Both the position numbers and the translations under genes were made by a program. A stretch of DNA of 64,000 nucleotides from Woeseiaceae bacterium (GTDB lineage: Bacteria; Pseudomonadota; Gammaproteobacteria; Steroidobacterales; Woeseiaceae). Below are positions 13,723 to 53,200 of this stretch, piece by piece. The number at the start of each line of letters is the position of its first letter. The first letter of the stretch is position 1. The stretch covers positions 248,001-312,000 of the forward strand of contig JAJFKS010000033.1 of NCBI GenBank assembly GCA_021773115.1, given 5' to 3'. Under the pieces are notes generated by a model. The model was not told the DNA's origin. It worked only from the letters and a program-made list of their open reading frames with translations, and made no database searches.

Positions 13723-13754
13723 ATGGTATATCCTGTATCCAGCACACAGGTCAA
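13723..13754 (-). promoter_or_regulatory. Regulon promoter 1 (nqr operon)
   Basis: -35 TTGACC and -10 TACCAT are 20 bp apart; an alternative -10 TATACC lies at 18 bp. The spacer holds the dyad CCTGT-N9-ACAGG. The same architecture appears before seven other operons in the window. The implied leader of nqrA is about 85 bases. Confidence 0.65.
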
Positions 13755-19163: not shown

Positions 19164-19195
19164 AGTGTGCAACCTGTACCCTACTGCCATGTCAA
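19164..19195 (-). promoter_or_regulatory. Regulon promoter 2 (hflKC)
   Basis: -35 TTGACA and -10 CACACT are 20 bp apart. The spacer includes GGGTACAGGTTG, identical to the half of the esterase promoter at 31454-31485. It sits just upstream of the hflK start at 19093. Confidence 0.6.
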
Positions 19196-22354: not shown

Positions 22355-23029
22355 TCAGGGCCGTTGCTGGGTTTTGACATCGGCAATGTTCGAACGTTCT
22401 AGCAGCTGCTTCCATTGGCCCGGCCGTGGGAAAAACATCGGCACTTGCTGCTGATAGTTACGATATTCGTCACCGAATTCCTCAAGCACCCGTTTTTCTT
22501 CGCGCCGCGCCAGTAACACATACGCAAGCACGATCAGCGGCAAAACAGTAATTGAGAACACCGTCGGCCAATGCACGAAACCCTCTCCAAACAGACCGAG
22601 AAAAAGGCCGGAATACTGCGGGTGTCTCACCACGGCGTACAGGCCGTCCGTAACGAGGCGGTTTTCCTGGCGCGCACGGTAAAGTTCGCGCCAGCCTTGT
22701 ATGAAAAGACCAATGCCGATAAACAAAAAGCCGTAGCCGAGGATCATTGCGATCATCATGCCGGTCTCACCCATTCCCAGCAGCGTCGACCACAAGTTTG
22801 CATTCAGATTGGCCTGATCCAGGCCGAAGAAGCGCACCAGCAGGTAGATTGTTAGCGGAAAACCGTACATTTCCGCGTACAAGGCAATGATAAATGCCTG
22901 CACCAGGCCTGCACTGGCCCACTCGCGCCAACTCTTGGGTGCCAGAAAGCGATAAAAAAACCAGGATGCAACGACGATCATGAAAATGGCGAGGATCCAT
23001 GTTCCCGAGTGTGCGATGTTGTTTATCAT
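22355..23029 (-). CDS. Isoprenylcysteine carboxyl methyltransferase family membrane protein
   Basis: The start MINNIAHSGTW (GGGAGG upstream) gives 224 residues with about five membrane helices. The C-terminal half contains LVTDGLYAVVRHPQYSGLFL and the later REEKRVLEEFGDEYRNY, the SAM-binding signature of the ICMT/PEMT-like family (compare RHPxY and EExxL..F...Y). Bacterial members methylate small lipids or thiols and are mostly uncharacterised. It lies between glgP (96-base gap) and cfa (67-base gap). Confidence 0.85.
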   Translation of the reverse strand: MINNIAHSGTWILAIFMIVVASWFFYRFLAPKSWREWASAGLVQAFIIALYAEMYGFPLTIYLLVRFFGLDQANLNANLWSTLLGMGETGMMIAMILGYGFLFIGIGLFIQGWRELYRARQENRLVTDGLYAVVRHPQYSGLFLGLFGEGFVHWPTVFSITVLPLIVLAYVLLARREEKRVLEEFGDEYRNYQQQVPMFFPRPGQWKQLLERSNIADVKTQQRP

Positions 23030-23125
23030 TGTAATTAGCCTCCCGCTAAGCATTCCGGTCGCACTGCTGTTTGACCGTTTGCAATGCGCCGATTGATGAA
23101 AAGTAGCAGTGACCCCGGAACGGCA

Positions 23126-26916: not shown

Positions 26917-28569
26917 CTATTGCGTACCAAGTCGCAGCGCGTCGTCGACGATGTCCTGCGCCTCGGAAAGCAGACCGTGCAGATGCTCCTTGCCACTAAA
27001 ACTCTCGGCGTAAATCTTGTAGATGTCCTCAGTGCCGGACGGCCGCGCGGCGAACCAGCCGCTAGCGGTGACAACCTTGATGCCGCCGATTGGCGCATCG
27101 TTGCCCGGTGCGCGATCGAGCACCTGCTCGATTTTCTCGCCGCCGAGTTGTGTGATCCGCACCTGTTGCGGTGAGAGTTTCGACAGCGCCTTTTTCTGTG
27201 CCGGTGTCGCGGGCGCTTCCACCCGATCGTAAACAGGCTCGCCGAACTCACGCGTTAAATCGCAATACAGCTCGCCCGGATCGCGGCCTTCACGCGCAGT
27301 GATTTCTGCGGCTAGCAAGGCCGGAACGATACCGTCTTTGTCGGTCGTCCAGACACTGCTGTCACGCCGCAGAAACGTCGCGCCCGCGCTCTCTTCACCG
27401 CCGAATCCGAGCGACCCGTCAAGCAAACCATCGGCGAACCACTTGAAGCCGACCGGCACCTCATGGAGCTTGCGTCCGAGCTTCGCCGCGACACGATCGA
27501 TCATCTGGCTGCTCACGACGGTTTTTCCGACGGCCACTTGCGCGTGCCATTCCGATCGATGCTGAAACAGGTAGTAAATTGCGACGGCGAGATAATGATT
27601 CGGCGGCAGCAGACCCGAACCCCGCGTAACGATACCGTGTCGATCGTGATCGGTATCGCAGGCGAAGGCGATGTCGAATTGATTTTTCAGGCCGATCAAA
27701 CCCTGCATCGCATAGGACGATGACGGGTCCATGCGAATCCGACCGTCCCAGTCGACGGTCATGAACCGAAAAGTGGGATCGACATCCTTATTCACCACCG
27801 TGAGCTTCAAATCATAGCGCTCCGCAATCGCCGCCCAATAGTGAACGCCGGCACCACCTAGCGGATCCACGCCCATGCTGATATTCGCACCACCAATCGC
27901 GTCAAGGTCAAGCACGCTATCGAGATCGTTAACGTAGGCGCTCAGGTAATCGTGCCGGTGCGTCGTGGCCGCACGCAAGGCCTGTTTGAACGGCATTCTC
28001 TTCACGCCCTGCAGGGCGTCTTTCAATAAAGTGTTCGCCCTTTTCTCGATCCAGCCAGTAATGCCGGTATCGGCCGGCCCGCCAGTGGGAGGATTGTATT
28101 TATAGCCGCCGCTGTCGGGCGGATTGTGTGACGGCGTGATCACGATGCCGTCGGCCAGTCCGCTGTCGCGGCCCCGATTGTGAACAAGAATGGCGTGCGA
28201 AACAGCGGGGGTGGGCGTGTATTCATCGTGCTCAGCCAGCATGACGTCCACGCCGTTGGCCGCAAACACTTCGAGCGCACTGGCAAAAGCAGGCTCGGAC
28301 AGCGCGTGCGTGTCAATGCCGAGAAACAGCGGGCCATCAATACCGGCTTGCTTGCGGTACTGACAAATCGCCTGGCTGATCGCAAGCACATGCGCTTCGT
28401 TAAAGCTGTTGTCGAGTGCGGATCCGCGATGTCCCGACGTACCGAACGCGACGCGTTGTGTAGGCTCCGCAAAGTCAGGCACGCCAGTGTAATAGGCCGT
28501 CATCAATCTTGGGATGTTAACCAGCATCTCCGGTGGTGCAGGCTTGCCGGCAAGCGGGTTTGGTTCCAT
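26917..28569 (-). CDS. pgm: Phosphoglucomutase (alpha-D-glucose phosphate-specific)
   Basis: The 550-residue enzyme interconverts glucose 1-phosphate and glucose 6-phosphate. It has the phosphorylated serine in [13 protein letters not shown] (Ser147), the metal-binding loop [10 protein letters not shown], the sugar-binding [13 protein letters not shown], and the phosphate-binding [12 protein letters not shown]. Length and start fit the E. coli Pgm type. Its ATG overlaps the stop of the copper ATPase gene by one base (TAATG), so a carbon-metabolism enzyme is translated as part of a copper operon. Confidence 0.96.
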
Positions 28570-30938
28570 TACGATGTCGCCGAAACGGCGGCGGGCTGGG
28601 GTTGCGGGGCGTTGATGCCGTCAAGACGGGTGCGCTTAAGCAGCAAGGCATTAACCGCCACCAGCGCCGAACTGCCCGACATGGCGAGAGCGGCCACCTC
28701 GGGACTCACGACCAGTGGATAGAAAATCCCCGCCGCCACTGGAAAAGCAATGACGTTATACGCGACGGCCCAGAACAGATTTTGGTGCATCTTGCGCAAG
28801 GTTGCGCGTGACAGCTCAATCGCGCCGAGCACGTCATAGGGATCGCTTTTCATCAGCACCACGTCGGCGCTGTCCATGGCGACGTCGGTGCCGGCACCTA
28901 TGGCAAAACCTACATCCGCCTGCGTCAGGGCCGGGGCGTCGTTGACGCCGTCGCCGACCATCCCGACCTTCTTGCCCTGGGACTGAAGCTCCTTGATCTT
29001 GTCGGCTTTTTGACCGGGCAGCACATCGGCAATTACCGTCTGGATGCCAAGCTCTTTGGCAATCCTCTCAGCGGTAGCCTGGTTGTCGCCGGTGAGCATG
29101 GCGACCTCCACACCCCGCTCGCGCATCTTTTTCACCATCGCCGCCGCCGTCGGTCGTGGTGCATCGGCGATGGAAATCAGTCCCACCAGTTTGCCGCCTT
29201 GAGCAACGTGGACGACCGTTTGTCCACTACCCTGAAGCCGGGCCGCCTCTTCGGCGAGTCCCGCCATGTCGACACGCTCCTCGTCCATCAAGCGGCGGTT
29301 TCCCAGCAGCACGGTCTGGCCCGCCACCTCGGCACGTGCGCCTTTGCCTTCGATGTTCAGAAATTCAGTCAGCGGTGCGGTAGCAAGCCCAGTCGCGCGA
29401 CGCAAAATCGCTTGTGCGAGAGGGTGATCGGAGCCTTGCTCCACCGTGGCCGCCAGACTCAGCACCGCATTCTGGTCGCCCTCGGCTGCGGCCACCTCCA
29501 CCACCTGGGGTTCGCCCATGGTCAGCGTACCGGTCTTGTCACAGACAACAATGTCGAGCCGGGTGGCCTCCTCAAGCGCCGAGGCATTCTTGAACAATAT
29601 TCCGTTCCTGGCGCCGAGACCAGTGCCCACCATCACGGCCATCGGTGTTGCGAGCCCGAGTGCGTCCGGACAAGCGATGACGAACACGGTAATCGTGAGC
29701 GTCACGGCGAACAGCAGACTGGCATTTAGCGCCCAGTACCAAACCCCGAATGTCAGCAGGCCGATGACGATGGCAATGACGACCAGCCACTGTGACGCTT
29801 TGTCGGCCAGCAGTTGCGCCGGCGCTTTGGAATTCTGCGCCTCCTGCACCAATTTAACGATCTGCGCCAGCGCGGTATCGGCGCCGACCTTGGTCGCACG
29901 GTATTTGAAGCTGCCGCTCTTGTTGATTGTGGCGCCGATCACTGTGTCGCCGGGCTTTTTGGCCACCGGCATGGATTCGCCGGTGAGCATCGATTCGTCC
30001 ACCTGCGACTCGCCGTCGAGGACCTCGCCGTCCACCGGAACCTTGTTACCCGGACGGATCACGACGATGTCATCCTTGATCACCTCAGCCGTCGGGATCT
30101 CCAATTCCTGACCGTCACGTATCACGGTGGCCTTCGGCGGTGCGAGATCCATCAGCGAACGAATAGCGTCGGACGCTCCTGCGCGGGCGCGCATCTCCAA
30201 CCAGTGCCCGAGTAGAATGAACACCAGCAGTACGGCCACCGCCGCGAAGAACTGTACGCCGTCGAAAAAGAACGTCGCACCGAGACTGAACAGATAGCCC
30301 GTGCCCACCGACAGCACCACCAGCACCGCCATATTGAGAACGCCATTGCGGAGCGCCCGCCACGCGGCAACGAAAAACGGCCAGCTGGGCCAGATGACGG
30401 CAACACTGGCCAACAGAAACAGCCACAGATTGAGCTTCAGGCCGAACGGCGGCGCCGGCGGTGTGAAAATCTCACCCATCGGCGAGTAAATGAAGATCGG
30501 CACAGTGAACAACAGGCAAATCCAGAAGCGCTTGCGCATATCGCGCACCATGGCCTGCATATCCATACTGCCGCCATGGCCCATCTCGTGCGCCATGGCC
30601 GTCGCATCGTCACCGCCAGCGTCGGTCCCGGTGTGCGCGGCATGGTGGTGATGTTCGTCGACGCCCGGGCCCGCCGTCCGTGTTCCATCGGGGGAATCGC
30701 CGGGTGTGCAAACATGTTTCGGCGTCAGTTCACCGCGGCAGTGAAAACCGCATTCGTGTATTTTTGCCTGGATCGCTTTGAGATCGGTGACATTGTCGTC
30801 GTAGCTGACGGTCGCGCTGCCGGCGACATAGTTAACGTCGGCTTTGTGCACGCCGGGTAGACGCATCAGTTGCTTTTCGACACCCGCCGCGCTCAGAGCG
30901 GAAATCAGTCCCGCGACTTCTACTATCGATTTAGTCAT
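28569..30938 (-). CDS. Copper-transporting P1B-type ATPase with CPD motif
   Basis: The 789-residue pump has an N-terminal ferredoxin-like metal-binding fold that has lost its CxxC ([14 protein letters not shown]), a His/Met-rich linker ([21 protein letters not shown]), and eight membrane helices. The transmembrane metal motif is CPD ([12 protein letters not shown], residues 423-425) instead of CPC or CPH. The phosphorylated Asp is in [12 protein letters not shown] (467-471), and [10 protein letters not shown] is the hinge. These features place it among copper pumps of the CopB-like or silver-type branches; the exact ion is uncertain. It is followed by pgm with a 1-base overlap. Confidence 0.93.
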
Positions 30939-30956: not shown

Positions 30957-31142
30957 TCAATGCCGGTGTTTTTGCTGTTGGTCGTTACGCTCCGCAGCTT
31001 CGGAATCATGCTGCGACTCGCTATCGTTGCTGTGACCGCCATGGCTGCCGTGACCGCCGTGACCGCCGTGACCGAATAAATGCATCGCGACAAATGCGAT
31101 GCCGACCACGACCCAAAACCCGTTTTCTATCAGCCAATCCAT
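30957..31142 (-). CDS. Small His/Gly-rich membrane protein (DUF2933-like)
   Basis: This 61-residue protein starts MDWLIENGFWVVVGIAFVAM, one membrane helix, followed by HLFGHGGHGGHGSHGGH and a charged, His-ending tail. GGAG and AGAGG lie upstream of the ATG. It strongly resembles the 51-residue protein at 43085-43240, which also sits beside copper genes. The repeated HGG units could bind copper or nickel at the membrane surface. It is the first gene of the ATPase-pgm operon. Confidence 0.75.
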   Translation of the reverse strand: MDWLIENGFWVVVGIAFVAMHLFGHGGHGGHGSHGGHSNDSESQHDSEAAERNDQQQKHRH

Positions 31143-31305: not shown

Positions 31306-31337
31306 AGGCTACAACCTGCACCCAACTGTCAGGTCAA
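31306..31337 (-). promoter_or_regulatory. Regulon promoter 4 (copper ATPase-pgm operon)
   Basis: -35 TTGACC and -10 TAGCCT are 20 bp apart. The spacer TGACAGTTGGGTGCAGGTTG differs by one base from that of the divergent promoter at 31454. The 487-base interval 31143-31629 contains this promoter pair and leaders, and no other gene. Confidence 0.65.
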
Positions 31338-31453: not shown

Positions 31454-31485
31454 TTGACCTGACAGTTGGGTACAGGTTGTATGCT
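31454..31485 (+). promoter_or_regulatory. Regulon promoter 5 (esterase gene)
   Basis: -35 TTGACC and -10 TATGCT are 20 bp apart with spacer TGACAGTTGGGTACAGGTTG. It is divergent from promoter 4, with 116 bases between the two -35 boxes, and nearly identical to it. Confidence 0.65.
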
Positions 31486-31629: not shown

Positions 31630-32652
31630 ATGACACCGACCACACCGGTACAGCACTCGGAGATCGAGCTACAGGTTTACTATCCAGTGAGCGACGGCCG
31701 TATCGTGTTGCATTGCGATTCGGATTGGGACGCTGATATCGAAGCCGACGAAATCCGCGACCAAGGTCAATGCTCGACGTTCAGACTGCGGTTCGACACG
31801 CCGTTTCGCTACTTGAAGCCCGTATGGGTGCGTGATAATTCGCGACATTGGGCGCGGGGCGAAAATTATCTGGTTCTGGCGCATGGCGAGCGCACGCGCC
31901 GCATTTATCCCTACTTTCTCAGGGACGACGGCTGCACCGTCTGCGACATCGAGCGAATGACATCAGCCGAGTCCTCCGCCCACTATGCTTTTCGGGTGTT
32001 TACGCCGCCGGGCTACCATGAGAACACCCTGAAGCGTTATCCCGTCCTGTATTTGCAGGATGGTCAAAACGTCTTCTTTCCCAGCGAGTCCTTTAGTGGT
32101 GCGGACTGGCGAATCCCGGAAACGCTGTCTTTGCTGAACGACATCAATTTGATCGATAAAGTCATTGCGGTCGGCATCTACCCGAATGACAGGGAACAAG
32201 ATTACACGCAGCCCGGCTATGAGGCCTACGGACGCTTCCTGGCCGGCCAACTAAAGCCGCGGATAGACAGCGTCTTTCGCACATTGTCCGACGCTCGCAA
32301 CACCGCGATCATGGGTTCATCGCTCGGCGGCGTCGCGTCGCTTTTTGTGGCGTGGCAGTGGCCGAAACTGTTTGGCAAGGTGGCCTGCCTGTCGAGCACC
32401 TTCGGCTGGCGAGATGACTTGCACACCCGCATCGCCGCCGACCAGCCGCGAGACATTCGCATATACCTCGACAGCGGCTGGCCGCAGGATAACTACGAGG
32501 TCACTCGTGACATGCAGGCGTTGCTCTTGAGCCGTGGCTATTCGTTTGGCCAGGATCTGCAGTACTTTGTGTTTCCTGGCTCCGCACACAACGAAAAAGC
32601 CTGGGCGCTGCGCAGCCATATTCCCTGCCAGTTCCTGTTCGCTGATCGGTGA
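31630..32652 (+). CDS. Putative alpha/beta-fold esterase (enterochelin esterase-like)
   Basis: The 340-residue protein has an N-terminal beta-rich region (possibly a degenerate carbohydrate-binding fold) and a C-terminal PF00756-type esterase domain. This contains VFTPPGYHE..YPVLYLQDGQNVF, the nucleophile elbow AIMGSSLGGVAS, and a catalytic His in FPGSAHNEKAW. There is no signal peptide, so it acts in the cytoplasm. The substrate may be a siderophore ester, a carbohydrate ester or another small ester. It is transcribed divergently from the copper ATPase operon from a matching promoter. The ribosome site is poor. Confidence 0.8.
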   Translation: MTPTTPVQHSEIELQVYYPVSDGRIVLHCDSDWDADIEADEIRDQGQCSTFRLRFDTPFRYLKPVWVRDNSRHWARGENYLVLAHGERTRRIYPYFLRDDGCTVCDIERMTSAESSAHYAFRVFTPPGYHENTLKRYPVLYLQDGQNVFFPSESFSGADWRIPETLSLLNDINLIDKVIAVGIYPNDREQDYTQPGYEAYGRFLAGQLKPRIDSVFRTLSDARNTAIMGSSLGGVASLFVAWQWPKLFGKVACLSSTFGWRDDLHTRIAADQPRDIRIYLDSGWPQDNYEVTRDMQALLLSRGYSFGQDLQYFVFPGSAHNEKAWALRSHIPCQFLFADR

Positions 32653-39067: not shown

Positions 39068-39199
39068 TTACTCCACGGCATGCTCGAGGCTCCGTGAGCA
39101 CGCGGCCTCGAAGCTACCATCGTCGAGAAAATCCCGTCGCAGGTCCTCGAGCCAGACGCTTTGACCGATTTCCTTCAGGCGTCGATGTGAACTCATCAT
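39068..39199 (-). pseudogene. tal: Truncated transaldolase N-terminus
   Basis: A frame starting at the ATGATG that overlaps the phosphoketolase stop encodes LKEIGQSVWLEDLRRDFLDD, the conserved start of transaldolase, and stops after about 43 codons. The catalytic lysine and the barrel are gone. Downstream sequence leads straight to the FAD gene. It probably records a deletion of a tal gene that was once co-translated with xfp. It is absent from the ORF track. Confidence 0.75.
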
Positions 39200-41613
39200 T
39201 CGACAGCCTCCGCGCTATTCGGTGGCGTCGAACTATCCGGCCAACGCCAGTCACGAATCGCTACCGGGTCCTCCCCGTGCTCGGTGATGTACTGACGATG
39301 TTCAATAAGTTTGTCGCGAATAAATTGTTTAGCGTAGGCGGCCGTGTAGCCGAGCGAAGGCACCCGATCAATGACATCGCCAACCAGGTGAAAACGATCG
39401 ATGTCGTTGCGCACTGCCATATCGAAGGGCGTCGTGGTCGTACCCTCCTCTTTGTAGCCGCGCACATGCAGATTACCGTGGTTGGTACGCCGGTAGGTCA
39501 ATCGATGGATCAATGTCGGGTAGCCATGGTAGGCGAAGATGATCGGCTTGTCCGTGGTGAACAGCGTGTCGAAGTCACGATCTGACAAGCCATGCGGATG
39601 CTCCTCCTTGGGTTGCAGTGTCATCAGATCGACGACGTTGACTACGCGTATTCGAAGTTCCGGTAACTGCTCACGCAAAATTGAGACAGCAGCCAGAGTC
39701 TCGAGCGTTGGCACGTCGCCCGCACAGGCCATCACCACATCGGGCTCGGCATCCTGATCGTTGCTGGCCCAGGACCAGATGCCCACGCCGGCGCTGCAGT
39801 GCTTGATCGCGGCATCCATATCCAGCCATTGCGACTGCGGCTGTTTGCCGGCGACGATAACGTTGACGAAATCGCGTGAGCGCAGACATTGATCGGCTAC
39901 GCACAGCAAGGTGTTGGCATCCGGCGGTAGATAGACACGGATAACGTCGGCCTTCTTGTTCACGACGTGATCGATAAAGCCCGGGTCCTGATGCGAAAAG
40001 CCGTTGTGATCCTGACGCCAGACGTGCGAGGTGAGCAGGTAGTTCAGTGAGGCAATCGGCCGACGCCACGGAATATCCTGGCTGGTCACCTTGAGCCACT
40101 TCGCGTGCTGGTTGAACATCGAATCGATGATGTGAATGAAGGCTTCGTAGCAGGAGAAAAAACCGTGCCGGCCGGTCAGCAGATACCCTTCCAGCCAACC
40201 CTGGCAGGTGTGCTCGCTCAAGATTTCCATGACCCGCCCGTCCGCAGCGAGGTGATCGTCCTCGTCGCTGCGCTCGGCCATCCAGGCACGGTCAGTCACC
40301 TCAAACAAGGCCGAGAGGCGATTGGACGCGGTCTCGTCCGGACCAAACACGCGAAAATTGCGGTTGCGCTCGTTACGTTGCATGACGTCACGCAGCAACT
40401 GGCCGAGCACACGGGTCGCCTCCCCCTGCACGCCGCCCGGCACGGGTACCTCGACTGCATAGTCGCGATAGTCTGGCATGCGAAGATTCTTTAGTAACAC
40501 GCCGCCATTGGCGTGCGGATTCGCACCCATGCGTTGGCAGCCGCTGGGCGCCAGCGCCGTCACATTAGCGACCGGTGCGCCCTGTGCATCGAACAATTCT
40601 TCCGGTCGATAACTCTTCAGCCACGCCTCAAGTTGCGCCACGTGTTCAGGATTGCCAGCGAGGCCTGAGAGTGGCACTTGGTGCGAGCGCCAGGAGCCTT
40701 CAGTACGTTTGCCGTCCACCTCAGCCGGGCCCGTCCAGCCTTTGGGTGTGCGCATTATGATCATCGGCCAGCGCGGTCGCTCGGTGTTAGTGCCATCGCG
40801 TGCTGTTTGCTGGATCGTCTGAATGTCCGTCAATGCACGATCGAGCGTCGTCGCCATCGCCTCGTGCATACGATCGGGATCGTCGCCTTCGACAAAATAC
40901 GGTCGATAGCCGTAACCAACGAACAGGCTCTCCAGCTCCTCGTGACTTATGCGTGCGAGTAACGTTGGTGCCGCAATTTTGTAGCCATTCAGGTGCAGGA
41001 TCGGGAGCACCGCACCGTCGTTAGCGGGATTTAGAAACTTGTTCGAGTGCCAGGCGGCTGCGAGCGGCCCGGTCTCCGCCTCGCCATCGCCAACCACACA
41101 CGTAGCGATCAACGATGGATTGTCAAATACGGCACCGTAGGCATGCGACAGCGCGTAACCGAGTTCGCCGCCTTCGTGAATTGAACCCGGGGTCTCGGGA
41201 GCAACATGGCTCGGGATACCACCCGGAAATGAGAATTGTTTGAACAGGCGGCGCATGCCGTCAGTGTCCTGGGACACATTCGGGTACACCTCGCTGTAAC
41301 TGCCCTCAAGCCAGGTGTTGGCGACCAGTGCCGGGCCGCCGTGGCCGGGGCCGGCAATATAGATCATGTTCAGGTCCCGAGCCTTGATCGTACGATTTAG
41401 ATGCGCGTAAATGAAGTTAAGGCCCGGACTTGTGCCCCAGTGCCCGAGCAGGCGCGGCTTGATGTGTTCAAGCGTCAGCGGCTCGGCCAACAAGGGGTTG
41501 TCGAGCAAATAGATCTGGCCGACGGACAGATAGTTGGCGGCGCGCCAATAGGCATTGAGTTGCGTGAGTTGGTCGGCGCTCAACGTTACCTGTGTGTCAG
41601 GTGCAGTGTTCAT
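39196..41613 (-). CDS. xfp: Phosphoketolase (xylulose-5-P/fructose-6-P)
   Basis: The 805-residue thiamine-diphosphate enzyme cleaves xylulose 5-phosphate or fructose 6-phosphate with phosphate to give acetyl phosphate. It shows [33 protein letters not shown] (ThDP-Mg site), GWTGP and [19 protein letters not shown]. Its ATG overlaps the acetate kinase stop, so acetyl phosphate formed here can be used by AckA to make ATP. Confidence 0.97.
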
Positions 41614-42779
41614 TCGGATAGCTCCAGTATTGAAGTTGTTTCTGATGGGTGGTCAATGTTCAGCAAAATTCGGGCGGCGTCAGCCATGACACGCGCCTCA
41701 TCGGTGGGTACGACCCAGATTTCCACCGCGCTGTCCTCAGCATGAATCAGCCCGCCAGCCTCCGCGGACACTGTTGTATTGTGCTTCGCATCAAGCCGAA
41801 TGCCCGCCCAGGCAAGACGTTCCAGGATTCGGGCCCGCACGAGACTGGCATGCTCGCCGATACCGCCGCCAAACAGGATTGCGTCGGCGCCGCCGAGCAC
41901 AGCGAGATAGGCACCCAGGTACTTGCGAATACGGTGACAGAACATCGCGACCGCGAGCGCAGCGTCGCTGCTATCACTCCCCAAGAGCTCCTGCATGTCG
42001 CCGGTTTGCCCGGAAACGGCCCGCAGGCCAGATGACTCGTTCAAAATCCAGCCGAGTTCGGCCGGGCTGAATCCAGCTTCGTCAATCAGGTGCAAGACCG
42101 CCGCCGGGTCGAGGTCACCGCAGCGGGTGGCCATCATCAGCCCCTCAAGTGGCGAAAAGCCCATGGAGGTTTCCAGCGGTGAACCGTGGTCGCTGGCTGT
42201 CATCGAACACCCGGCTCCCAGCTGCAGCGAGATCACACGAGTACCGCCTGGACTCTGACTACGCTCGCGCCACTGGTCCAGCATCGACTGATGCGCTATG
42301 CCGTGAAACCCGTATCGGCGCAGTTGGTACTTGTCGGCCCACTCCCGGGGTACCGCGTAGTGAGCGGCCGCCCGCGGCAACTCCGCGTAGAACCCGGTAT
42401 CGAAACAGGCCGCCTGTCGAACCTCAGAACCAAACGCCTCGCGGCTGGCACGAATCCAATCGAGCGCGACGCCGTTATGCAGTGGCGCCAGCGTTCTGAG
42501 CCTGTCAATCTCGTCCTCGACACCGGCGTCAATCCAGCACGGTGCGCGCAAGCGCTGGCCACCGTGAACGACGCGGTGCATGACAAGCTTCGGAGCACCC
42601 AGGGCATGGCGGCGCACGAAATCCACGAGTACATCGGGATCCCGTGCCGGCGACGGCGACAGGTGCATATCGGCAACGCGGCTCAGCTCACCGTCGAGCA
42701 CATAGTCCGCCAGTCGCAACGACGAACTGCCGGCGTTAACGGTGAGAATGTGGTGGCCTTTGTCGGGTGCCGCAGTCAT
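41610..42779 (-). CDS. ackA: Acetate kinase
   Basis: From [20 protein letters not shown] (AGAGGCGG upstream) the protein has 389 residues. It shows [28 protein letters not shown], the ATP-binding [15 protein letters not shown] and [11 protein letters not shown]. It converts acetyl phosphate and ADP to acetate and ATP. The translational overlap with xfp makes a two-step ATP-yielding module. No phosphotransacetylase gene is present here. Confidence 0.96.
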
Positions 42780-42816: not shown

Positions 42817-43074
42817 TTAAGCGCCCCACCGCCGACTGAAAAAGTTGTAGAGCGGGACGTAGACGATGGCGGCATAGAAGCCGAACAGGAAACTCTCAAT
42901 GAGCCCCAGCAAAAAACCCCACCAGGACAGCCATTCGAATGCTGGCAGGATCTGCTCAAGAAAAGCATGCATGTGCAGAGATTCCGGTGTCACCAGCCCC
43001 CAAAGCACGCACACGACAAACGACACCGCCGCCCAACTGCCGAGCGACCATCCCACGATTTTCCAGTTCAACAT
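42817..43074 (-). CDS. Small membrane protein, DUF5676-like
   Basis: From MLNWKIVGWSLGSWAAVSFV (GAGGAGAA upstream) the 85-residue protein has two to three membrane helices and the family stretch CVLWGLVTPESLHMHAFLEQ. The His-Met-His pair and the SLFGFYAAIVYVPLYNFF-like ending are typical of small membrane proteins near copper pumps. The function is unknown. Confidence 0.82.
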   Translation of the reverse strand: MLNWKIVGWSLGSWAAVSFVVCVLWGLVTPESLHMHAFLEQILPAFEWLSWWGFLLGLIESFLFGFYAAIVYVPLYNFFSRRWGA

Positions 43075-43084
43075 CAGGTTCTCC

Positions 43085-43240
43085 TCAATGGTGTTTGTCC
43101 GGCTTTTGCCCGTCATCGCCAGGGTCTTCTTCACTGTTCGCGCCATGATCGCCGTGGCCGCCGTGTCCGTGAAACAGGTGCATGCCAACGCACAACAATA
43201 AAATGATCAAAAAAAACGAATTTGCATTCAGCCAACCCAT
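43085..43240 (-). CDS. Small His/Gly-rich membrane protein (DUF2933-like; not in ORF track)
   Basis: The minus-strand ATG at 43240 opens a 51-residue frame: MGWLNANSFFLIILLLCVGM, one helix, then HLFHGHGGHGDHGANSEEDP and a tail ending DKHH. It closely parallels the 61-residue protein at 30957-31142 (same M-x-W-L start, same MHLF-GHGGHG join). It sits 10 bases before the DUF5676-like gene and 10 bases after the PII-like gene. Metal binding by the HGG repeat is inferred. Confidence 0.8.
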   Translation of the reverse strand: MGWLNANSFFLIILLLCVGMHLFHGHGGHGDHGANSEEDPGDDGQKPDKHH

Positions 43241-43250
43241 ATTGGTCACC

Positions 43251-43583
43251 CTACTCGGTTAACGAGGCGCCCAACACCTCGGCGCCATTGGTCAGATTGA
43301 CCAGCCGGTCGATGCTTTCAACAGTCAACATGCCAGCCTGAGCACCGCAATCTTGCGCGCACTGTCCAATCGCACCAATTATGGAATCAAGCTTTTCGTC
43401 GCCGACATACAATATCAATCGGGCGTTGTCGTTCATCAGGTCGCGGCGAAAGAAATTGGGATGTTCACCGTAACCTTGCACGTGCTCAACTGTCACGCCG
43501 GGTACACCGCAAGCACGCAAGCTCTTTTCCATGGTCGGCAGAATGTCGATCGGTACGATCGCCGTGATACGTTTGATCTTCAT
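43251..43583 (-). CDS. PII-like signalling protein
   Basis: The start MKIKRITAIVPIDILPTMEK (AGGAGACC upstream) gives 110 residues with a ferredoxin-like fold. The region corresponding to the T-loop reads VEHVQGYGEHPNFFRR, followed by ARLILYVGDEKLDSII. It lacks the uridylylated Tyr and GlnB signatures. PII-like proteins of this kind accompany metal efflux systems and may bind metal or nucleotide; cysteines in CAQDCGAQAG could contribute. Confidence 0.82.
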   Translation of the reverse strand: MKIKRITAIVPIDILPTMEKSLRACGVPGVTVEHVQGYGEHPNFFRRDLMNDNARLILYVGDEKLDSIIGAIGQCAQDCGAQAGMLTVESIDRLVNLTNGAEVLGASLTE

Positions 43584-43647: not shown

Positions 43648-44025
43648 CTATTCCACAATCAACTTGCCGCGGAACATGCCCATCTGGCAGGCGAACTCAT
43701 ACTCCCCAGGCTCCGTCGGAACGAATTCCACGGCCACCGTTTCACCGGTCGGCAATTGCACGCTTTTATCAAAGTCCGGCAGCATCACCATTTCCGAACA
43801 ACTCGCCGTTTCCTCGCGGCGAAAGTTCAAGCGCACCGGCTTACCGCGCTCAACCAGCACAAGGTCGGGCGTGTAGCCGCCCTTGACCAAAATCATTGCC
43901 TCCTGCTGTCCTGAGCTTGTCAGCGTCGCTCGCGTCCCCTTTGATTTCTTCAACCAGAAAAACCACACGATGAACACGATCAGCGTAAATCCAAGCACCG
44001 TTACGAATAGACGATCGGGTGTCAT
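43648..44025 (-). CDS. Cupredoxin-domain protein, membrane-anchored
   Basis: The 125-residue protein has an N-terminal membrane helix ([20 protein letters not shown]) and a cupredoxin domain with [16 protein letters not shown] and [15 protein letters not shown]. The Cys and Met positions match the cupredoxin family with a CxMGM copper loop found beside CopA pumps. It may pass copper to or from the pump. Its ATG overlaps the copA stop by 4 bases. Confidence 0.88.
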
Positions 44026-46490
44026 GTCACAGCTCCTTTAGGTTGGAAATAGCGAAGGCGATTGGCGTTGGTAACCACCGTGACCGAGCTGAACGCCATG
44101 GCGCCTGCGGCAATCAGCGGCGAGAGCAACAAGCCCGTGAACGGATACAACAGTCCCATCGCAACAGGAACGCCCAAAATGTTGTATATGAATGCGCCAA
44201 AGAGGTTCTGCTTAACATTTCGCATCGTCGCGCGGGAGATTTCCATGGCTGTCACAACGCCCGTCAAACTCCCCTTAATCAAGGTTATGTCGCTCGCCTC
44301 AATCGCTACGTCGGTTCCGGTGCCGATCGCCATGCCGACGTCGGCTTGTGCAAGCGCCGGTGCATCGTTAATGCCATCGCCGACCATTGCGACGACCTTG
44401 CCTTCGAGTTGCAGCTTCTGAATTTCGTGGGCCTTGTCCTGCGGCAGGACATCAGCCAGAACCCGGTCAACGCCGACCTGTTCCGCAATCGCCTCGGCAG
44501 TGCGCGCGTTGTCGCCGGTGATCATGACGACCTCAAGACCCAGGCTGTGCAAGGCCTTGATCGCCATCGGCGAGTCGTCCTTGATCGTGTCAGCAACCGC
44601 AACCAGGCCCGCGGCTTCGCCGTCGATTGCGACGTACATGGGTGTTTTGCCATCGGCGGCGAGGCGATCCCAGTCAGCGCTCAAGGCATCGGCATCGATG
44701 TTTCTATCGCGCAATAATTTGACGTTGCCGAGCAACAGCTCGTGCTCGCCCACTCGGCCACTGACGCCGTGTCCGGGGATAGCGGCAAAATCGATACTCG
44801 CCTGAAGCGTGAGCCCGCGCGACTCCGCGCCGCGCACGATCGCCTCGCCCAAAGGGTGCTCAGAGCCTTTTTCCAGTGCCGCCGTCCACGCCAGAAGATC
44901 GTCCTCGACAAACCCGCCAATCGTGACTACGTCGGTCAAGGCAGGTTCACCCTTGGTGATGGTGCCGGTCTTATCAAGGACAATGGCATCGATGCGTTTG
45001 GCCGTTTGCAAGGCATCGCCCGAGCGAATCAGAATGCCGTTCTCGGCGCCTTTACCAATACCCACTGTCAGCGACGTTGGCGTTGCCAGTCCTAAAGCGC
45101 AGGGGCACGCAATGATGAGCGTGGTGACCAGAACAATGATGGCGTAGACAATACGTGGCTCGGGACCGACGTTGTACCAGACCATGAAGGCGAGAATGCC
45201 GAGGATCATGACGGTCGGAACGAAGTAGGCGGCAACCTGATCCACCACACGCTGAATCGGCGCTTTGGATCCCTGCGCGTCCTGCACCATGCGAATGATG
45301 TTCGCCAGTGCGGTGTCCTTGCCGACTCGGGTGGCCTTGAATGTAAAGCTGCCGGTTTTGTTAAGCGTCGCACCGATCACCTCATCGCCGACGCCTTTTT
45401 CCACCGGCATCGACTCACCGGTGATCATGGATTCATCGATGCTGCTCGAGCCTTCTGTCAGCGTGCCATCGACCGGGATCTTTTCGCCCGGGCGTACCAC
45501 GACCAGGTCACCGCCCACGACTTCCTCGACGGGAATGTCCACCTCTCTACCTTCACGTACGACGCGGGCTGTCTTGGCCTGCAGGCCAACCAGCTTCTTA
45601 ATCGCCTCCGAGGTCTTGCCTTTGGCTTTGACTTCCAGCGCCATCCCTAAGACAACCAACGCCACGACCACTGTCGAGACATCCCAAAACGCTTCGGCCA
45701 GCGCCTGGGTTGGAAACCACTGCGGAAACAGCACGGCGACGGCCGAATACAAAAACGCCGCGGTGATACCGGATGCAATCAGCGTGTGCATGTTGGCCGT
45801 ACGATGTTTGAGTGCCGCCCACATGCCGGTGTAGAACTGCGAGCCGGACCACACGAGAACCGGTAGCGTCAACAGGCCAAGCAGGCCCCATACGATGCGA
45901 CGATTGTCACTGCCCATTGGCATCCAGTCGCGGAGCCCAGGAACAAAGTCCGGATAGCTAAAGAACATCACCGGCAGAGAAATTACGCCCGCGAACCAGA
46001 ACTTTCGCATCAGGCTCTTGTATTCAGCGTTTTGTTGTTCAGCATGTCGATCAACACTCCCTCCCGTCGAATCCAGTGCCGGCGCCAACCGATAGCCACT
46101 TTCCTCGACAGCTCGCCTCAAACCCTCGACATCAATCAATGCCGGTCGGTATTCGATATTCACTTCAGCGGTGGCCGAGTTCACCGAGGCGGAAATAACA
46201 CCTGAAGTCCGCAGCAACGCACCCTCGACCTGCGAAACGCAGGAAGCGCAGCGCAAGCCCTCCACGGCCATACGCGCCTTGGCCCCTCCGACGGTAAAGC
46301 CTTCTTCGCGTACGGCGTCAGCCAATGTACGCACTTCAACCTGTTCCTCGTTGTATTCAACCTGAGCACTTTTGTCCGCCAAGCTGACGCGTGCATCTGA
46401 CACGCCAGGGATGCGACGTAGGGCGACCTGCACACGCTTTGAGCAATGTATGCAAGTCATGTCCTCTACGGTGAACTTAAGTTGTTGCAT
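44022..46490 (-). CDS. copA: Cu(I)-exporting P1B-1 ATPase
   Basis: From [20 protein letters not shown] (GGAGTC upstream) the pump has 822 residues. Two metal-binding domains carry CIHC (13-16) and CASC (81-84). The membrane motif is [13 protein letters not shown], the phosphorylation site [12 protein letters not shown], and the hinge [10 protein letters not shown]. This is the classic CopA type exporting Cu(I) from the cytoplasm. It overlaps the Rieske gene by 14 bases. Confidence 0.97.
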
Positions 46491-47124
46491 GATCGACTCC
46501 AATTTCAAGAATGCTGTCATCAATGAATCGATAAGGCGGCACGACGAGGTTGGTTGGTGCAGGCACATTCTTGGTCACACGCCCGGCTAAATCGAACTTG
46601 GAGCCGTGGCACGGACAAAAATAGCCACCCATCCAATCCTCCCCGAGCCCTTCTCCAGCCACGTCCGGGCGAAATAGCGGCACACAACCCAGGTGTGTGC
46701 ACAGAGCCACTGCCACAAAAATTTCAGGGCGTAGTGAACGCAGCGGATTTTGCGCGTACGGCGGCTGCTGCGTCTGCACAGCTGAGTCGGGATCACGCAG
46801 CTCGTTAATCCAGTGCCCGTGCGCCATGCGCTCAAGCATCGCCGGTGTGCGACGCAAGATCCAGATGGGCTTGCCGCGCCAGATAACCGTGATTTGTGCG
46901 CCCGGCTCGATTTGGCCAACGTTTACGGACACCGCACCGCCGACCGCCTGCGCTTTCGCGCTCGGTCTTAGCGATGCAATAAACGGCCATGCCGCCAGGC
47001 CCGCGCCGACCACCCCGGTGGTGGTGGCCGCGGCGACCAGAAAATGTCGGCGTTGCCGCTCGGGATCACTCACCAACTTACTGGTGGATCCCGTATCCGC
47101 AGCGGCGTCTGGTTTGGATTTCAT
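46477..47124 (-). CDS. Rieske [2Fe-2S] protein (PetA-like), orphan
   Basis: The 215-residue protein has a Tat-type signal-anchor ([20 protein letters not shown]) and a Rieske domain with CTHLGC (Cys142, His144) and CPCHGS (Cys170, His173). It resembles the iron-sulfur subunit of cytochrome bc1, but no cytochrome b or c1 gene is here. Its neighbours are a MerR regulator (ATGA overlap) and copA. It could replace PetA under metal stress or feed the nearby cytochromes. Confidence 0.92.
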
Positions 47125-47555
47125 AGTTCGACCTTACCTATGTCGCCGCCCATTTCTGCCACGGCATCAATCAGGTGGCACAAACTTTCGTGGCTGGGTA
47201 GTTGATCCGGCATGGACTCCCACACGTCGACCGCAGACTCAATACGGCTTTGCAGTGCGTTGAGTTCCTGGAGTCGCTTCCGATTTTCGTTTGCGCGCCG
47301 CGTGATTATTTGACGAACCTCCCGGCACGGCGATTGACCCGCGTCCGCGTCGGCCAATATTCTTTGTATGTCGCTGAGCTTAAAACCCAGTAATTTTGCG
47401 CGCCGAATGAAGCGAACACGATAAATGTCCGTCGTCGAGAACTGACGATAACCGTTGTCGGAGTCACGCGATGGCGTAAGCAAACCAATCTGCGTGTAAT
47501 AGCGCACCACGTAGGACCGCACACCGGCTTTGTTGGCTAGTCCTTTTACGTGCAT
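47121..47555 (-). CDS. MerR-family metal-responsive regulator
   Basis: The 144-residue protein has a winged HTH (VKGLANKAGVRSYVVRYYTQ), NGYRQFS, and a long helix. Cys77 (SPCREVR) matches the sensor Cys of ZntR, PbrR and MerR, and Cys126 (SLCHLID) matches the C-terminal Cys of that group; the central Cys-His pair is missing. This supports soft-metal sensing, ion unknown. It lies within the operon driven by promoter 7, consistent with autoregulation, and is the best candidate to control the eight similar promoters. Confidence 0.9.
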   Translation of the reverse strand: MHVKGLANKAGVRSYVVRYYTQIGLLTPSRDSDNGYRQFSTTDIYRVRFIRRAKLLGFKLSDIQRILADADAGQSPCREVRQIITRRANENRKRLQELNALQSRIESAVDVWESMPDQLPSHESLCHLIDAVAEMGGDIGKVEL

Positions 47556-49611: not shown

Positions 49612-49643
49612 ATGCTACGACCTATACGTTGCACACAGCTCAA
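49612..49643 (-). promoter_or_regulatory. Regulon promoter 7 (porin-MerR-copA-ackA-xfp operon)
   Basis: -35 TTGAGC and -10 TAGCAT are 20 bp apart. The spacer starts TGTGTGC as in the nqr and glgC promoters and includes GTATAGGT. The predicted leader is about 70 bases. Confidence 0.6.
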
Positions 49644-49701: not shown

Positions 49702-50217
49702 CTAGTCAGTCAACTCTTTGCCTTGGACGCTCGCGTAAACGCTGGTGCTACCGTCAGTGTGATACGCGATGACGTCGTACCTGACCGGGTTTGGACCTTC
49801 CATACCGGGTGAACCCATTGGCATGCCTGGTACCGCAATACCCTGTATGTCAACCGGCCGCTCCGTCATCAGGCGGTCTACTAAATCCGCGGGCACATGA
49901 CCTTCGACCCAGTAGTCGCCCACCACCGCGGTGTGGCAGGAACCCAGCCGATTGGGTACGCCTGCCTGTTCGCGTGCAGGCGCGGTACTTGCTACGTTAA
50001 CCGCGGCGACGTCAAGTCCACTTTTCTGTAAATGTTCAACCCATTTGCTGCAACAGCCACAGGTCGCGGTCTTGTAGACGACAATGTCTACGCCTTCAGT
50101 GTTCGGCCTCTCGGCCAGCTCACGCATGCTCGAAGTCGCCGAATAAACCAGCGCCATTCCAATGACACCAACCGCAGTAATTACCGTTATCATTTTTACG
50201 TTGTTCGATATCTTCAT
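49702..50217 (-). CDS. DUF411 metal-binding protein
   Basis: The 171-residue protein has an N-terminal membrane helix or signal and a DUF411 domain: VVYKTATCGCCSKWVEHLQ, then RLGSCHTAVVGDYWVEGHVP and AVPGMPMGSPGMEG. The CxCC and Met-rich stretches bind copper or silver. DUF411 genes are common next to cus systems. It lies 59 bases after cusA. Confidence 0.93.
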   Translation of the reverse strand: MKISNNVKMITVITAVGVIGMALVYSATSSMRELAERPNTEGVDIVVYKTATCGCCSKWVEHLQKSGLDVAAVNVASTAPAREQAGVPNRLGSCHTAVVGDYWVEGHVPADLVDRLMTERPVDIQGIAVPGMPMGSPGMEGPNPVRYDVIAYHTDGSTSVYASVQGKELTD

Positions 50218-50276: not shown

Positions 50277-53200
50277 CTAAATACGGATTCCCGAACGTAA
50301 ACCGTGCCCACGCCATAGCAGGAACAGCGCGGGAATGACGATGAGAGTGAGTATCGTGGCGCTCACCATGCCGCCGACCATCGGTGCGGCAATTCGGCGC
50401 ATCACCTCAGATCCAGTACCACTGCCCAACATGATTGGCAGCAAGCCGGCGATAATCGCCGCAACAGTCATCATGATGGGTCGTACTCGCAGTACTGCCC
50501 CATCTATGACGGCTTGTTGCACGTCTTCAGTTGACAACGCACGCCCTTCTGATTCCGCCGTCGAGATGTGTTGGCGGATGGCCTGATTCAGATACACCAG
50601 CATCACCACGCCGATTTCGACGGCAACGCCTGCAAGCGCAATAAAGCCAACGCCGACAGCGACCGACAGGTCGTATTCAAGCAAGTACAGCAGCCAAAGG
50701 CCGCCAATGAATGCCATGGGTAGCGTACCGATGATGATGGCGACCTCCGCGAATCGGCGAAAGTTCAGGTACAGCAGTAGTACGATAATGGCTAGAGTTA
50801 CGGGTCCGACGAGAGAAAGCCGCTCTTTTGCGCGAACCATGTATTCGTACTGTCCTGACCATGCGAGTGAGTAACCTGCGGGCAGCTCCACAAGATCTGC
50901 GACCACTTTTTGTGCCTCGGCCACGTAGGAGCCGAGGTCGCGCTCAGTGATGTCGACGTAGGTCCAGCCGTTCAATCGGGCGTTTTCGCTCTTGATAGCG
51001 GGAGGTCCGTCAATTACGTTGACGTCTGCCACGTCAGCGAGCGCTATGCGTGCTCCCTGGGGTGTGACGATCGGTAACAAGCGGAGCTGTTGCACAGAAT
51101 CGCGGAAACGCTGTGGGTATCGAACATTGACCGGGTAACGTTCCAGACCCTCGACGGTTTGCGTGACATTCATGCCACCCACGGCCGACTGCACCACGTC
51201 TTGAATATCCGCGATATTCAGGCCAAATCGTGATGCGCGTTTACGGTCGATTTGAACGTCGACGTAGCGACCACCAGCAACCCGCTCCGAATACACAGAC
51301 GCCGTTCCGTCAACATTTTCAAGTACGCGCTCGAGATCCTGACCGATGCGTTCGATCACCTTGAGGTCCGGTCCAGCAACCTTGATGCCGACCGGTGTCT
51401 TGATGCCCGTTGCCAACATATCGATACGTGTCTTGATCGGCATCACCCAGGCATTGGTTAGCCCGGTGTATTTCACAACCCGATCAAGCTCGGCGCGCAA
51501 TTTGTCCGGCGTCATGCCTTCACGCCATTCCTCACGAGGCTTCAACTGAACGACGGTCTCAATCATTGTTAGCGGAGCCGGATCGGTTGCCGTTTCAGCT
51601 CTACCGATCTTGCCAAACACTCGCTTGACCTCCGGCACCTTTTTGATCATTCGATCGGTGTGTTGCAGGATTTCTCGAGCTTTGTCGATCGACACACCGG
51701 GATACGTGGTCGGCATGTACATGATGTCGCCCTCGTCGAGCGGCGGCATGAACTCTGAACCAAGCTGAGTTGCCGGCCATAGCCCGATGATCAATACCGC
51801 AGCTGCCGCAATCAACGTTCCCCTCGGAAAACGAATCACGGCATGAATAATCGGCTGGTACAACGCAATGAGTACACGGTTGATCGGGTTTTTGTGCTCT
51901 GGGGTGATCTTGCCCCGTATGAAGTAGCCCATCAGAACCGGCACGAGCGTAATTGACAGGCCTGCGGATGCTGCCATCGCGTATGTCTTTGTGAACGCCA
52001 GTGGCGCAAACATACGACCCTCTTGCGCTTCCAGCGTGAACACCGGCAAGAAGCTCAGCGTGATAATCATCAACGAAAAGAACAGTGGTGGACCCACTTC
52101 GGCAGCCGCATCGCCCATGATGCGCCATCGATTTTCGTCAGTGAGCGGCTCCTTTTCAATGTGTTTGTGCACGTTTTCGATCATCACAATGGCCGCGTCG
52201 ACCATGGCTCCAATAGCAATCGCGATGCCGCCGAGCGACATGATGTTCGCGTTGAGGCCCTGCATTTTCATAACGATAAATGCACTGAGGATGCCGATCG
52301 GCAGGCTCAGGATGACGACCGCAGACGACCGCAGATGGAACAGGAAAACCGCACACACCAACGCCACCACTAGAAACTCCTCCAGAAGTTTTTCCTGCAG
52401 AGTCTCAACAGCGCGTTCGATAAGATCGGATCGGTCGTATGTCGTTACAATTTCCACGCCATCAGGAAGGCTGCGTTGTAATTCGCCGAGGCGCTCTTTG
52501 ACGGCATCGATCGTCTTCAGCGCATTCCCGCCCCAGCGCATTACGATAACTCCGCCGACCACTTCGCCTTCACCGTCAAGCTCAGCAATACCGCGGCGCA
52601 TCTGCGGCCCGATGCGAATTTCCGCTACATCCGACAACACGATGGGTGTTCCTTCACTGTTGACGCCCAATGGTACGTCGCTAATATCGTCGATGCTTTG
52701 CAGGTACCCACTGGCTCGGACCATGTATTCAGCCTCGCCCATCTCGATCACCGAACCGCCGGTCTCCTGATTGCCGCGCTGAATCGCCGTTTTGAGTTTC
52801 GATAGAGGAATCCCAAACGCACGCAGTTTGTCGGGGTCGACAACGACCTGATACTGACGCACCATGCCGCCAATCGTTGCCACTTCAGCTACGCCGGGTA
52901 CAGTCTGCAGTTCGAACTTGAGGAACCAGTCCTGCAAGCTTCTCAACTGTGAGAGATCGTTCTGGCCGGTGCGATCAACCAGCGCATATTCATAGACCCA
53001 GCCAACACCCGTCGCGTCCGGCCCGAGCGCGGGTTTCGCATTGTCCGGTAGCTGCCCAGCGACCTGGCTCAGGTATTCCAATACTCTTGAGCGGGCCCAA
53101 TAGAGATCAGTACCGTCCTCAAAAATGATGTAGACGTAAGAATCTCCAAAGAAAGAATAACCACGTACGGTGACGGCTTTCGGTACAGCCAACATCGCCG

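Follow-up and report, generated by a model that had tools for sequence, protein, structure and literature searches.

Do two frames of only 51 and 61 codons, each placed beside the gene of a P-type ATPase in a Woeseiaceae bacterium, encode proteins, and do these proteins take part in the handling of metal by the pumps? P1B pumps are mostly viewed as single-chain machines that are supplied by soluble chaperones. An earlier note on the 64,000-nucleotide stretch of DNA analysed here (the window) had proposed that the two frames, here called P0001 and P0002, encode small copper-binding partners of the two pumps.

Both frames were confirmed, and both lie on the minus strand (Table 1). P0001 is translated as MGWLNANSFFLIILLLCVGMHLFHGHGGHGDHGANSEEDPGDDGQKPDKHH and P0002 as MDWLIENGFWVVVGIAFVAMHLFGHGGHGGHGSHGGHSNDSESQHDSEAAERNDQQQKHRH. 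The likeness that had been noticed between them is real in all its parts: the M-x-W-L start, the single helix, the MHLF join and the HGGHG repeats are present in both proteins. A scan of public genome contigs yielded 80 loci of this short family, 65 of which could be read as full proteins; their hosts include Gammaproteobacteria, other Pseudomonadota, Ignavibacteria, Nitrospirae, Gemmatimonadaceae, Bacteroidetes and others. In order to avoid circularity, a hidden Markov model (HMM) was built from 58 distinct outside members, and among all the frames of the window P0001 and P0002 were its sole significant matches, the next best having an E value of 2.6; for this reason their likeness is not attributed to chance. 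The outside members were gathered with a pattern that included P0002, so that P0001 is the more independent test of the model. A third, weak match in the same genome (about 52131-52235, plus strand), antisense to CusA, was dismissed as chance.

Table 1. Position of the small genes, their neighbours and the putative operators in the window
Feature	Position	Strand	Evidence and remarks
P0001, short DUF2933 protein, 51 aa	43085..43240	-	One TM helix, MHLF-HGHGGHG tail; PF11666, 38.1 bits (gathering cut-off 21); outside-only HMM, E 5e-14
P0002, paralogue, 61 aa, MHLFGHGGHGGHG tail	30957..31142	-	First gene of operon B; PF11666, 20.1 bits (gathering cut-off 21); outside-only HMM, E 3.8e-25
MerR-family regulator	47121..47555	-	Heads operon A; reading of the sequence; phmmer matches in related islands
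Rieske-like protein	46477..47124	-	Between merR and copA, same operon; frame and gene overlaps; named from CTHLGC/CPCHGS motifs
CopA-type P1B-1 ATPase	44022..46490 (start approximate; frame open from 46568)	-	Two HMA domains, CPC motif
Cupredoxin-domain protein	43648..44025	-	Overlaps the end of copA; PF13473
P-II-like protein	43251..43583	-	Ends 10 nt before P0001; PF00543, 38.5 bits
DUF5676 protein, 2-TM membrane protein	42817..43077	-	Starts 7 nt after P0001; PF18926, 52.8 bits; conserved partner
Acetate kinase	about 41610..42779	-	37 nt after DUF5676; reading of the sequence
Phosphoketolase	39196..41613	-	Overlaps the acetate kinase gene; recurs in related islands
P1B ATPase with CPD motif (P1B-3a-like)	28569..30938	-	Starts 18 nt after P0002
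MerR-type promoter/operator, TTGACCTGACAGTTGGGTGCAGGTT	31313..31337	-	Upstream of P0002; TTGACCT-N13-AGGT; 0 expected in shuffles
Second operator copy	31454..31478	+	Faces the divergent gene at 31630

That the frames might be spurious and untranslated is suggested by the shortness and low complexity of the proteins, and would be contradicted by conservation at the codon level. In the family the N-terminal half follows the pattern M-x-W-L-x-x-N-W...F..M-H-L-F-G-H-G-G-H-G; M1, W3, N7, H21, G24 and H25 are kept by all 58 distinct members, M20 and W8 by 95%, and G26 by 97%, and the Gly/His-rich tail is variable, with a mean of 6.2 His and an H-x-H-like motif at the end of 38 members. Over 30 codons the median pS was 0.78 and the median pN 0.17, with omega about 0.15 in the less saturated pairs; pN was lower than pS in each of 1326 pairs, the variability fell on third positions, and the contrast disappeared in shifted frames. 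The frames of the short family are under strong purifying selection as proteins, as translated genes are, which removes the objection that they might not be translated. In addition, AGAGG, which resembles a ribosome-binding site, precedes P0002, and a search of plasmids with a typed consensus-like member gave one match, in a Methylophaga plasmid where the frame carries a CDS annotation (the same search with P0001 gave none). Spurious frames are, in consequence, hardly credible, and P0001 and P0002 are real genes, homologous to each other. Since a search of 59 relatives, of which 35 are listed in the same genus, did not find the small protein, the region of the window that carries these genes looks acquired.

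The description of P0001 as an unlisted protein does not stand, given that it belongs to the Pfam family DUF2933 (PF11666), well above the gathering cut-off; P0002 scores just below it. The matches of P0001 and P0002 span positions 25-51 and 29-51 of the 52 of the model, that is, its second half. With hhalign, the short family and the long DUF2933 proteins align in the last helix and in the tail (97.8%, E 8e-13), and 30 of 32 short members match DUF2933 at E <= 1. Both forms are thus homologous in that helix and in the HGGHG tail, and the motif C-x-x-M-H-x-F followed by a His/Gly tail is recognizable; the Cys that stands in the CPLMH of long members is kept in P0001 and absent from P0002. In contrast, the first helix and the EHRAH loop of the full domain are lacking in both proteins, which show instead the M-x-W-L-x-x-N start. 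Because only the second half of the model is matched, and AlphaFold gives one long helix, P0001 and P0002 are classified as a short one-helix variant of DUF2933 that lacks the first TM segment of typical members.

The nearest known context is the published copA-cupredoxin-DUF2933 cluster of Alteromonas; clusters with the order merR-copA-cupredoxin-DUF2933-ICMT and a long DUF2933 have been described in Alteromonas and Vibrio (PMC8478169), and DUF2933 is also annotated at bsl7992 of Bradyrhizobium (PMC9104804). P0001 shares an operon with CopA and a cupredoxin, whereas P0002 is accompanied by the pump only. The short form usually precedes a DUF5676 gene rather than that of ICMT (isoprenylcysteine carboxylmethyltransferase), and beside P0001 DUF5676 takes the place of ICMT; an ICMT-like membrane protein is encoded far off, at 22355-23053 (minus strand), and a similar protein occurs near the short gene in 25 of the 80 loci. 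In the open-access papers searched, neither the short form nor its association with DUF5676 was described; DUF5676 is not mentioned in them, and DUF2933 in only five. No solved relatives of either protein were found. CopG/SilG (ORF105, DUF411) is another small, poorly characterised protein of copper operons; in contrast to short DUF2933 it is a periplasmic CxxC protein of unrelated sequence (PMC4356207), and SilG/ORF105, being CopG-like, was rejected as a relative. The window itself contains a DUF411-like gene at 49702-50217, from reading of the sequence.

P0001 is the sixth gene of operon A, whose order is MerR-Rieske-copA-cupredoxin-PII-P0001-DUF5676-ackA-xfp, with consecutive genes overlapping by a few bases or separated by 7-64 nt. 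The last two of these genes, for acetate kinase and phosphoketolase, belong to carbon metabolism, and 18 of the 80 related loci also have a phosphoketolase gene no more than 10 kb away from the short one. A P-II-like gene similar to that of operon A precedes DUF5676 in another locus, L170. In operon B, P0002 is followed by the CPD-motif P1B ATPase and by a phosphoglucomutase-like gene. The idea that each small gene lies in an operon with a copper ATPase is therefore sustained as regards the tight arrangement on the same strand with a P1B ATPase, but the pump beside P0002, with a CPD motif instead of CPC or CPH, is only putatively a copper ATPase. This pump carries CPD, YN and MSGSS as does subtype VIc of the P1B-3a Cu-ATPases described for Rhizobiales by Cubillas et al. 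2017; we found no small partner described there, and the conserved motif (M)AHEMGHGG that precedes the first helix in the CPD pumps analysed here is a further difference from the enzymes presented there (PMC5552934). The possibility that the small protein stands in for a missing His-rich N-terminus of the CPD pumps was weakened by the finding that the CPD pumps of these loci still have 4-16 His in the stretch of 90 residues that leads up to the first helix.

The operators upstream of P0002 show the architecture ACCT-N13-AGGT, which is that of CueR operators. The MerR-type operator is not specific to the small gene: among the 80 related loci it turned up on only 7 occasions, and in three of these (L065, L067 and L075) a merR gene follows it at about 80 nt or the operator occupies the corresponding position. 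Weaker matches to MerR-type promoters occur at 19171-19195, 13731-13754 and 49620-49643, all on the minus strand. Two of them precede HflK/HflC-like genes and an NQR-like operon, which suggests that the regulator of the island may control more than metal genes.

Co-occurrence with P1B pumps, on which the proposal of a pump partner depends, was found both locally and across genomes. A P1B pump lies within 10 kb of the short gene in 47 of the 80 loci and in 23 of the 31 with full flanks; many of the 33 loci that show no P1B pump in the available stretch are cut by contig ends. P1B ATPases are densest close to the short gene, at 0.12 per kb in the first 1 kb as compared with 0.025 per kb at a distance of 4-10 kb; the genome under study has 4 P-type ATPases in 4412 kb. 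Among 276 genomes of the class, clear short members (E < 1e-14) are present in 8, and pumps of the rare CPD subtype also in 8, with 6 common to both. Leaving out the genome under study, 5 of 275 have both, 2 have only one, 2 only the other, and 266 neither (Fisher p = 3.4e-8).

The most constant neighbour is nonetheless DUF5676 and not the pump, so that the notion of a small partner of pumps holds in part. A DUF5676 gene lies on the same strand within 500 nt of the short gene, which it adjoins more closely and constantly than any other, in 56 of the 80 loci and in 26 of the 31 with full flanks, and in the class sample the DUF5676 subfamily near that of the window (at least 120 bits) adjoins a short gene in all six cases, our own included; where DUF5676 scores no more than 69 bits, a clear short member is lacking, with weak matches of 17-24 bits in two of these loci. 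Both proteins are highly conserved, DUF5676 having an invariant Cys, Pro and Trp as well as a conserved HMH and a Glu in the second helix; a fold search with it against the PDB gave nothing significant. The linkage and the conservation would be expected if short DUF2933 and DUF5676 made up a separate complex in the membrane, such as a small carrier, channel or receptor for metal, and the pump were just another member of the island. Against it, P0002 has no adjoining DUF5676 and is coupled directly to the pump, as are the short genes of L091 and L113, and the DUF5676 of L170 (102 bits) occurs without a short gene; such a self-sufficient complex competes closely with the reading favoured below, but is held with considerable doubt. 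A related proposal, which we put forward just as tentatively, is that short DUF2933 and the matching DUF5676 subfamily could be an undescribed two-gene membrane unit for metal handling that metal islands have carried from one phylum to another. The His-tailed helix would capture an ion, and the two-helix partner would hand it over to a CPD-type P1B pump or pass it on without such a pump.

A regulatory subunit comparable to KdpF of KdpABC or to the regulins of SERCA, with a helix that lies against the ATPase and modulates it and a His tail that senses metal, would agree with the size, the single helix and the place in the operon beside a P-type ATPase, and KdpF sets a precedent for single-helix partners of P-type pumps (PMC3618439). 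What is shared with KdpF and with other small subunits of P-type ATPases is the form of a one-helix protein encoded beside the pump. On the other hand, the putative metal-ligand segment is strongly conserved, and the linkage to DUF5676 would be left unexplained; KdpF is not known to have a His-rich tail or a linkage to DUF5676. We consider such a subunit unlikely. CutF exemplifies, in a copper operon, a leader peptide that is exported and whose translation arrest serves to sense copper and to control the gene that follows (PMC9973294); such a role would suit P0002, the first gene of operon B and placed directly before the pump. Nevertheless, the position varies among loci, P0001 being far down its operon, and what is conserved over many phyla is the helix and the ligand segment, not a C-terminal stalling motif, the tail being variable; a CutF-type peptide would be expected to combine a place just before the regulated gene with a conserved C-terminal arrest motif, a combination that the family does not show, and this explanation is very improbable.

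Regarding the topology, AlphaFold predicts a short N-terminal helix, then a single confident helix spanning residues 8-25, and finally a tail without order. The N-tail has on average 0.09 K+R and 1.4 D+E per protein, and the C-tail 4.4 K+R and 4.3 D+E. Because the N-tail is nearly devoid of positive charge, the C-tail has it, and the long form carries a basic segment before its first helix, the His tail is predicted to be cytoplasmic and the N-terminus to be outside, according to the positive-inside rule, which is weak for a charge-balanced tail. P1B pumps load at the cytoplasmic face, and the Met/His/Gly tail would be placed at that surface of the membrane.

The reading that we favour overall, with a probability of roughly 0.45, is that P0001 and P0002 are expressed as small inner-membrane proteins that act as a metal buffer or acceptor for export. 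Judging from its ligand-rich composition, the most likely role of the conserved M-H...GHGGHG segment is the weak and exchangeable binding of metal ions that are soft or borderline, with copper as the first candidate. Tethered to the membrane, the small protein would hold the ion there for export, and it may act together with DUF5676, when this is present, and with the neighbouring P1B pump. Thus, P0001 and P0002 are probably small metal-handling helpers of the export systems in metal-resistance clusters. If this is true, bacterial metal export would gain a further component, a conserved His-tailed partner anchored in the membrane and linked to a specific DUF5676 and to the poorly understood CPD pumps, and there would be a first way to approach the function of two uncharacterised families.
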